Source: Sediminibacterium sp. (GTDB taxonomy: Bacteria > Bacteroidota > Bacteroidia > Chitinophagales > Chitinophagaceae). Taken from it: a stretch of 64,000 nucleotides of DNA. The notes beneath the pieces are model-generated. The model searched no databases and was not told the origin of the DNA. It saw only the letters and a program-made list of their open reading frames with translations. The first letter of the stretch is position 1. Each line of letters begins with the position of its first letter. Below, one piece after another: positions 46,237-47,591 of the stretch. Both the position numbers and the translations under genes were made by a program. The stretch lies in contig JANREK010000046.1 in the NCBI GenBank assembly GCA_030726065.1, positions 1 through 64,000 of the forward strand, given 5' to 3'.

Positions 46237-46271
46237 TTTTTCAAAGACTTTAAATCGTTGATAATCAATAT

Positions 46272-46298
46272 AAAAAAGCCCCTTTTTGGGGCTTTTTT
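46272..46298 (+). terminator. fusA terminator
   Basis: AAAAAAGCCCC (46272-46282) and GGGGCTTTTTT (46288-46298) form an 11-bp stem with a 5-base loop. A TTGATAATCAA palindrome (46258-46268) sits immediately before it. Confidence 0.92.
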
Positions 46299-46347
46299 AG
46301 TGCCTGCATCATTTTTTAAAAATATTTCAAAAAAAGGGCAATATTTC

Positions 46348-46378
46348 TTGAATGTGTCGGCACAACCCATTACCTTTG
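46348..46378 (+). promoter_or_regulatory. rpsJ promoter, TTG-N20-TACCTTTG
   Basis: TTG at 46348-46350 and TACCTTTG at 46371-46378 are spaced by 20 bases, a strong Bacteroidota promoter that starts the S10-spc unit. It leaves a leader of about 25 bases before the rpsJ ATG. Confidence 0.8.
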
Positions 46379-46408
46379 CAACCCCAAGATAATTTGGGAA
46401 AAATAGCT

Positions 46409-46714
46409 ATGTCTCAAAGAATTAGAATAAAATTACAATCTTACGATCACAACTTGGTAGACAAGTCTGCTGAGAAAATCGTAAAAACCGTACGCAGTAC
46501 TGGTGCAGTAGTAACAGGTCCTATTCCTTTACCTACACACAATCGCATTTTTACTGTATTACGTTCACCGCATGCGAATAAGAAAAGTCGTGAACAGTTC
46601 CAATTAGCAACGCACAAGCGTTTATTGGATATCTACACTTCTTCTTCTAAAACAGTAGACGCCCTAAGTAAGTTAGACTTACCATCAGGTGTTGAGGTGG
46701 AAATCAAAGCATAA
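46409..46714 (+). CDS. rpsJ: Ribosomal protein S10
   Basis: 30S head protein, 101 residues. It begins [20 protein letters not shown] and contains [23 protein letters not shown] 46409 is chosen; the open frame begins earlier but inside the promoter. It is followed by an unusually long 259-bp gap before rplC that can fold into structured RNA. Confidence 0.98.
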
Positions 46715-46973
46715 GTATTTATAAATACCATCTCCCAATCACTGCCCATTATGCAGTAGTCGAGAAAGGAGCGCTGGTTGAATAAGTAAAATATAAACAG
46801 GCCCTTCGAGGTTTGTTTACTTCCGGTACTTCCCCTCTCTTCATTGAGAAACAAAGGAAAAGGTCGGCAGCAAACAGGGATTGAATCCGAGCTACTAAAA
46901 ATCGCAAGGTAATAGTGTAGCATCATCATCGGATGTCCTCAGAACCAAGCGCGGGGCATAAACCGCAAAACAG
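46715..46973 (+). promoter_or_regulatory. Candidate structured RNA leader of rplC (S10-operon internal)
   Basis: This 259-bp gap lies between rpsJ and rplC, where other gaps in the operon are 15-91 bases. GCGCTGGTT (46771-46779) can pair with AACCAAGCGC (46943-46952) through nine base pairs with one bulged A, closing a domain that holds hairpins at 46795-46818, 46830-46859 (TTCC/GGAA and TCTC/GAGA), 46878-46888 (GGAT-tga-ATCC), 46891-46921 (GCTAC/GTAGC) and 46921-46935 (CATC/GATG). The 3' arm overlaps GCGG...CCGC (46951-46966), a hairpin ending 7 bases before the rplC ATG, so the two pairings exclude each other. All pairings were found by eye. No promoter, T-tract or coding frame of merit is present. 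Confidence 0.5.
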
Positions 46974-47591
46974 ATGAAAGGTATTATTGGAAAAAAAATT
47001 GGTATGACCAGCATCTTTGGTGAAGATGGTAAGCAAATTGCTTGTACCATTATCGAAGCTGGTCCTTGTACTGTGACTCAGGTTAAAACAACCGAAACAG
47101 ATGGTTACAGCGCCGTGCAGTTAGCATTGGGCGACAAAAAAGAAAAACATTCTACAAAATCAGAAGTAAATCACTTCGCTAAAGCACAAACTGCTCCAAA
47201 GCGTTTTGTAAAAGAATTCCGCAACTATTCTATCAAAAAAGCATTAGGTGAATCAGTAATGATTGACATTTTTGCTGAAGGCGATGCAGTAGAAGTGGTA
47301 GGAACTACAAAAGGTAAAGGTTTTCAAGGTGTTGTAAAGCGTCATGGATTTAGTGGTGTGGGTGAAGCAACGCATGGTCAACATGATCGTTCTCGTGCAC
47401 CAGGTTCTATTGGTGGATCATCTTACCCAGCAAGAGTATTCAAAGGTATGCGTATGGCAGGCCGTATGGGTACTGATCGCGTTAAAACAAAGGGATTGAA
47501 AGTGTTAAAATTATTCCCAGAGAAAAATTATATTTTAATCAGTGGTTCTGTACCGGGTAACAACGGTTCAATTGTTTTAATCCAAAAGTAA
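46974..47591 (+). CDS. rplC: Ribosomal protein L3
   Basis: Early 50S assembly protein near the peptidyl-transferase centre; 205 residues. It begins [19 protein letters not shown] and has the extended loop [17 protein letters not shown] followed by [20 protein letters not shown]. Its start lies directly after the candidate structured leader, so its translation may be the regulated step of this operon. Confidence 0.98.

Follow-up and report, generated by a model that had tools for sequence, protein, structure and literature searches.

A conserved structured RNA between rpsJ and rplC in the S10 operon of Chitinophagaceae, a candidate internal ribosomal-protein leader

What occupies the long untranslated space that separates rpsJ from rplC inside the S10 operon of Sediminibacterium sp.? 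In the window, that is, the whole stretch of 64,000 nt of contig JANREK010000046.1 analysed here, the open reading frames and the sequence place the end of rpsJ at 46714 and the start of rplC at 46974, leaving a gap of 259 nt, in agreement with the length and coordinates (46715-46973) given by a sequence-only reading of this DNA. The gap measured 225-323 nt in all 14 loci of the same genome and genus in which both rpsJ and rplC were found, and 4-78 nt in all 11 loci from other families of the order; the long rpsJ-rplC gap is a trait of the family. A repeat or mobile element was ruled out, since the stretch is present once in its own genome. A simple scan for Rho-independent terminators found none on the + strand between 45500 and 48000, and Rfam 15 gave no match at or above gathering threshold either in the window or in the gap regions of eight relatives, so that the Rfam check proposed by the sequence-only reading left its suggestion of an undescribed motif standing so far. 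The sub-threshold matches to Mahella-1 (E = 0.53) and FuFi-1 (E = 2.9) look like chance. As a separate observation, a DUF805b RNA (46.1 bits, above gathering) was found by Rfam at 285-320 of L176, a Chitinophaga silvatica locus, outside the rpsJ-rplC gap. The minimum-energy fold of the window gap was itself unremarkable (z = -1.48; 16 of 200 shuffles as stable).

Comparison of 83 distinct aligned homologues (30 + 13 + 40 loci from separate searches) yielded a fold composed of P1, P4, P5 and P7, followed by a weaker P8 ahead of rplC (Table 1), and it indicates that the gap holds a real, conserved, structured RNA. A covariation test modelled on R-scape, in which substitutions were reshuffled along the tree in 60 simulations, detected significant covariation at three pairs of P1 and five of P7 across the 83 homologues; two more significant hits lay inside the hairpin loop of P4 and correspond to no helix, and the best pair of P5 reached just E = 0.13. 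Pair counts were obtained from alignment A1, which comprises those 56 homologues, out of 83, whose region does not exceed 255 nt, L033 being excluded by name. In A1, 95.5% of cells paired across P1, P4, P5, P7 and P8 together, with 214 double-change cells and both-side changes at 21 of the 39 pairs of the whole structure; no shuffle equalled the real structure on any measure, and pairing fell to 35-52% when the partners were displaced by 1-3 columns.

Table 1. Features of the rpsJ-rplC region, in window coordinates
Feature	Position	Strand	Details and basis
Putative -7 promoter box of rpsJ, TAccTTTG	46371..46378	+	38 nt before the rpsJ ATG
rpsJ, ribosomal protein S10 (also NusE)	46409..46714	+	ORF and translation
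Decayed boxA-like site	46715..46724	+	GTATTTATAA where relatives have AGTTCTTATAAA; intact in many relatives
P1, 5′ strand, CCA-U-CUCC	46728..46735	+	Covariation, pair counts
P1, 3′ strand, GGAG-CGC-UGG	46768..46777	+	CGC opposite U46731 in the internal loop; covariation, pair counts, fold
P2, variable hairpin within the P1 loop	46741..46757	+	Fold of the window sequence alone
P4 hairpin	46795..46818	+	AAACAGGCC / GGTTTGTTT; sequence strongly conserved
P5	46820..46870	+	Outer stem 46820-46825/46865-46870, inner stem 46830-46833/46856-46859
P7	46877..46939	+	46877-46880/46936-46939 and 46885-46889/46930-46934; five significant pairs
P8, hairpin before the rplC start	46951..46966	+	83.9% of cells paired (A1)
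rplC, ribosomal protein L3, presumed regulated gene	46974..47591	+	ORF

The individual parts are preserved in different manners. The P1 hairpin, spanning 46728-46777 overall, has a nearly invariant internal loop, and its outer pairs (46728-46777, 46729-46776 and 46730-46775) were paired in 244 of 249 cells, the first of them being U-A in 48 and C-G in 32 of the 83 homologues. Energy folding of three representatives, including the window, gave the same P1 hairpin in all, although in no case did the stability exceed that of shuffles by much (z -1.1 to -1.9). Large conserved patches lie in P4, P5 and P7. In A1, P4 was paired in 99.8% of cells, with a double change at one pair; the outer and inner stems of P5 were paired in 92.9% and 99.6% of cells, respectively, with double changes at 7 of 10 pairs, and the internal loop that they enclose, GUAC / AAGGU, varies little or not at all; P6, at the tip, is variable. 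P8 showed both-side changes at each of its four pairs in A1, and it was missing or remodelled in some relatives.

The sequence-only reading had interpreted the gap as a two-state switch, in which a long helix between GCGCTGGTT (46771-46779) and AACCAAGCGC (46943-46952) would alternate with a 3′ hairpin formed by GCGGGGCATAAACCGC (46951-46966). The three strings do stand at these places, both pairings are possible in the window sequence, and the long helix is present in its minimum-energy fold; across homologues, however, the helix did no better than chance, its nine pairs being paired in 53.1% of the cells of A1 against a shuffled mean of 54.8% (481 of 500 shuffles as high), with every covariation measure within the range of shuffles (n = 56). 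Moreover, its 3′ arm is altered in near relatives, reading AACCAAACGC in L034 and AACCAGACGC in L036 and being changed also in L037, and its 5′ arm belongs to P1, forming the 3′ strand of that hairpin, in which compensatory change is pronounced. The 3′ hairpin, which is P8, fared better, since it is 83.9% paired with both-side changes, a partial support that does not extend to all relatives. In the tree-aware test on the 83 homologues no long-range alternative pairing was significant, and therefore there is no evidence for two exclusive states: the switch is refuted across relatives by this comparison, and an alternation of the two pairings is regarded as extremely unlikely. The place and kind of element proposed at first were upheld, that is, a structured, conserved and probably regulatory RNA internal to the S10 operon, and the proposed covariation check among relatives brought out a conserved covarying structure in which the long helix has no share. 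The role of P1 as the family-wide core, the boxA-like site of the relatives and the P5 and P7 domains were absent from that reading.

The distribution of the element was assessed with R1, a covariance model built from A1, which matched 99 of 147 family genomes at E <= 0.001, 47 of these 99 having been in the model. There was one convincing match per genome, and the element lay between rpsJ and rplC in all matches with examined flanks. Among 298 genomes of the order, R1 gave matches at E <= 0.1 in eight that lie outside the family, all of them weaker than E = 0.001 and none convincing. Candidates for extra copies, namely weak second matches in G371 and G037 and a weak match in G318, were rejected, as they fall within or overlap predicted ORFs. 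A curious case was L166, whose record is titled Flavobacterium sp. isolate MAG17: it has the large element and stands among Sediminibacterium-like rows in the rplC tree, and it is probably misnamed. Among named sequences, the rplC of the window matched best those of Chitinophagaceae, Sediminibacterium included.

Searching for rplC in 32 family genomes, 29 of them missed by R1, located the locus in 29 of the 32 and revealed a much simpler form of the element. Two of those loci (L134 and L158) carry the large form and two (L137 and L146) reduced or divergent ones, and a relaxed search found, in 22 of the other 25, a hairpin with the architecture of P1, composed of an outer stem, an A-U pair, one nucleotide (mostly U) opposite CGC or CUC, and an inner stem. 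In P1 of the relatives the internal loop is mostly followed by a C-G pair. In L137 (G075) and L146 (G090), P5 is kept with altered stem letters (CCTTG/CAAGG and CTTCTAG/TTAGAAG) around a conserved GTAC / AAGGT loop; these reduced or strongly diverged forms are useful for defining the core. For counting, gaps were assigned to large, small and other groups by pattern and locus number, with identical gaps counted once and 14 loci without detectable upstream rpsJ excluded. This gave about 150 natural variants, 107 large and 50 small gaps, extending from a short hairpin up to an RNA of several domains, with L137, L146 and L190 counted as small, being actually reduced, divergent or large forms.

P1 was present in 105 of the 107 large and 44 of the 50 small distinct gaps, in a search that requires three pairs on each side of the loop, so that this pairing is there by construction and the variety of pair types is not; the stem letters vary with pairing kept, and the internal loop hardly varies. 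A strict P1 pattern was found in 89/107 large, 34/50 small and 3/73 other gaps (shuffled means of 1.95, 0.10 and 0.50), the other gaps being short (median 40 nt) and having a lower chance of containing any motif. The three strict matches outside the family (L050, L255 and L263) are all from f8, a single different family within the order. In small forms P1 stands by itself, and in 34 of 44 cases a distance of 13-15 nt separates its foot from the rplC AUG; in the large form there are 138-334 nt between the end of P1 and the start codon, and in one large clade that includes the window P4-P8 lie in between. The rplC tree placed several small-form lineages (with Flavipsychrobacter, Taibaiella and Chitinophaga) outside the large-form clade, and one clade held all 104 large forms used, plus a small-form clade with Ferruginibacter inside; the large-form clade has a support of no more than 80, and many of the forks stay open. 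The small form is apparently ancestral, and the distribution of forms on the tree makes it likely that P1 came first and that P4-P8 were added once and lost in Ferruginibacter.

Neither form of the gap appears to encode a peptide or to carry a promoter. The longest closed ATG open reading frame had a median of 9 aa (maximum 81) in large-form gaps and of 0 aa (maximum 45) in small-form gaps, no conserved reading frame was found, and the lengths of the large gaps were evenly distributed modulo 3. TAnnTTTG, which we take to be the Bacteroidota promoter consensus, occurred inside only 3/107 large and 0/50 small gaps. It could be thought that the large conserved patches of P4, P5 and P7 belong to a metabolite riboswitch or to a separate non-coding RNA nested in the operon, but the element sits between rpsJ and rplC wherever flanks were examined, the weak extra matches coincide with predicted ORFs, and the simple form consists of nothing more than a hairpin at the start of rplC, which makes such an identity very unlikely. 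An RNA-processing or stability element, with a cleavage site or barrier that splits the rpsJ mRNA off and sets different amounts of S10 and L3, would suit a long structured untranslated stretch positioned between two cistrons; two features, the specific internal loop and, in small forms, the fixed distance of 13-15 nt that separates P1 from the rplC AUG, suggest instead an action on rplC translation, and this role is held to be distinctly unlikely.

Upstream of rpsJ, TAnnTTTG was found within 150 nt of the gene in 100/102 large-type relatives (median distance 38 nt), 46/49 small-type relatives (median 47 nt) and 10/70 others. Since this promoter box stands close to rpsJ, there is little room for an E. 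coli-like leader before that gene. A terminator-like stem, GCCCCTTTTTGGGGC, with flanking A and T runs, is located directly after fusA at 46271-46299 of the window, listed on the - strand, and rpsJ therefore seems to begin its own transcription unit. Between the putative promoter and the rpsJ ATG, at 46383-46398 of the window, there is also a short hairpin, CCCAA...TTGGG, and similar CCCAAT...ATTGGG hairpins were seen upstream of rpsJ in several relatives.

In most relatives, the stretch from the rpsJ stop to P1 contains AGTTCTTATAAA or AGTTCTTTAANAAATTGA, sequences reminiscent of boxA, the consensus of which, GYTCTTTAANA, has been published for gammaproteobacteria (in the available part of PMC5725501). 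The shorter motif GYTCTTW was present in 87/107 large gaps (shuffled mean 9.8, maximum 17), 33/50 small gaps (mean 1.4, maximum 5) and 0/73 other gaps (mean 1.9, maximum 5), an earlier grouping having given 86/107, 31/49 and 3/74, and of the 84 large gaps in which the distance was measured, 83 had 4-24 nt between its end and P1. The full gammaproteobacterial consensus was exact in 15/50 small and 0/107 large gaps. GYTCTTWA is found across the window at chance frequency (11 sites against 11.5 expected), and the motif is therefore meaningful only by its conserved place. In the rRNA operons of four relatives, GYTCTTTGACATATTG preceded 23S in 4/4 and GTTCTTTGAAAG preceded 16S in 3/4, the fourth differing by one base; the gap site of the relatives resembles this rRNA-operon boxA of their own family, whereas the window copy does not. 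Additional boxA-like sites, beyond those adjoining 16S and 23S, were observed in the rRNA leader and 16S-23S spacer of L295, L296 and L297; behind them come a stem that contains a T-arm-like GGTTCAAAxCC and a closing CATCTGC or a related sequence, which together constitute a repeated element. S10 is the same protein as NusE, which joins NusB on boxA, according to the available parts of PMC5725501 and PMC10931766, and the motif of the relatives looks like a docking site for NusB:S10. The window clade carries GTATTTATAA or GTACTTTATAA at the boxA place, and GYTCTTW is absent from the gap of the window itself; because this site decayed with P1-P8 kept, boxA cannot be essential there.

These observations raise the alternative that Nus-factor feedback is the main function and that S10, not L4, is the sensor, so that free NusB:S10, on binding boxA, would lower rplC translation and alter Rho termination through the loop to RNA polymerase, as has been reported for E. 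coli suhB. The site lies directly behind the gene for S10/NusE, the exact published consensus occurs among small forms, the family's rRNA operons have the same motif, and there are precedents in the suhB and rpsJ of gammaproteobacteria (PMC5725501, available part). However, P1 persists where boxA decayed in the window clade and across large forms devoid of the exact consensus, GYTCTTW is absent from the three f8 gaps having P1, and the same motif is also present within 150 nt upstream of rpsJ in 9/102 large-type and 12/49 small-type relatives; on this evidence, Nus feedback as the main function is judged unlikely.

The reading that we favour, and regard as reasonably probable from the comparative data, is that the gap is a cis-acting ribosomal-protein leader inside the S10 operon, acting on rplC translation. 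P1, plus P5 and P7 where present, would be the binding site of a ribosomal protein encoded by the operon, most plausibly L3 or L4, which are candidates by gene order only. Excess protein would remain on the mRNA and block the entry of the 30S subunit at rplC, lowering the expression of rplC and later genes, with S10 made independently. Bacteroidota make little use of Shine-Dalgarno sequences. Where boxA is intact, it may recruit NusB:S10 as in rRNA operons, and this complex might shield the untranslated stretch, help it to fold, or make S10 a second input. In the simplest reading, the element would be a hairpin that binds a protein where the ribosome enters, elaborated later, with a Nus-factor site alongside. 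That NusB:S10 at boxA and a P1-bound protein jointly couple rplC and downstream genes to free S10, with control placed just behind the first gene, is a tentative proposal and somewhat unlikely.

Several features argue for a leader: the covarying predicted structure of the 83 homologues, its fixed place between rpsJ and rplC and single convincing copy per genome, the recurrence of P1 in large and small gaps with the 13-15 nt spacing of the small form, the boxA-like motif matching that of rRNA operons, the promoter box of rpsJ and the lack of a conserved ORF. A predicted RNA structure that is conserved, covaries and adjoins a ribosomal-protein gene is, moreover, the general mark of such leaders. 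Against this reading in the large form, P8 is not universal. With P1 138-334 nt from the start codon there, simple occlusion by P1 does not fit unless P8, or a higher fold that brings the two together, takes part. Mimicry of an rRNA site is frequent, not universal, among ribosomal-protein leaders; crude scans of one 23S gene (2,300 of 5,801 bases unmasked) and of E. coli rRNA revealed no convincing look-alike of P1.

In comparison with known systems, the L4-controlled S10 leader of gammaproteobacteria, described in the available part of PMC10931766 as a 5′ UTR before rpsJ that acts partly via a Rho-independent terminator, is likewise a structured RNA tied to the S10 operon, but the element studied here lies behind rpsJ and the scan of the + strand showed no terminator. 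The boxA of E. coli suhB, through which NusB:S10 mediates regulation of translation and Rho, and the rpsJ boxA of three gammaproteobacterial genera (both from the available part of PMC5725501, in which boxA was sought within 50 bp upstream of the start codon) also adjoin a Nus-factor gene; in contrast, the present site is behind nusE and before rplC, with a conserved hairpin next to it, the exact consensus is absent from large forms, and the window copy is decayed. The 20 candidate ribosomal leaders in the available part of PMC7247131, which include Bacteroidota leaders of L13, S4, S15 and S16, are likewise narrowly distributed, covarying and located at ribosomal-protein genes; the table seen there has no Bacteroidota rplC leader, and its L4 candidate at rplC is from Archaeoglobi. 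Similarly, the rpsJ motif of Peptostreptococcaceae (PMC11109978, available part) is a structured RNA linked to rpsJ, differing in that it is in the 5′ UTR of rpsJ and in another phylum. No rpsJ-rplC motif of Bacteroidota was named in the available parts of PMC7247131, PMC11109978, PMC6429828 and PMC2864571, and no description of S10-operon regulation in Bacteroidota was found in the literature searched, which was mostly open-access and taken without supplements. The element is thus found in no database or paper searched, its kind, the ribosomal-protein leader, being already known and its regulatory role being predicted.

For the biology of the family, these results indicate that the E. coli L4 leader does not fit this operon and that the gap probably holds an undescribed point at which ribosome production is controlled, unusual in its internal position, in its boxA companion and in the breadth of its forms, which run from a lone hairpin to an RNA of several domains. 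It offers a compact and testable control site, whose natural variants let the core be told from the additions. If boxA works, ribosomal-protein and rRNA synthesis would be tied to one Nus complex, and, should the proposed coupling be true, ribosomal-protein and rRNA operons would answer to that same complex, the clade of the window having kept P1-P8 and given up the boxA input.
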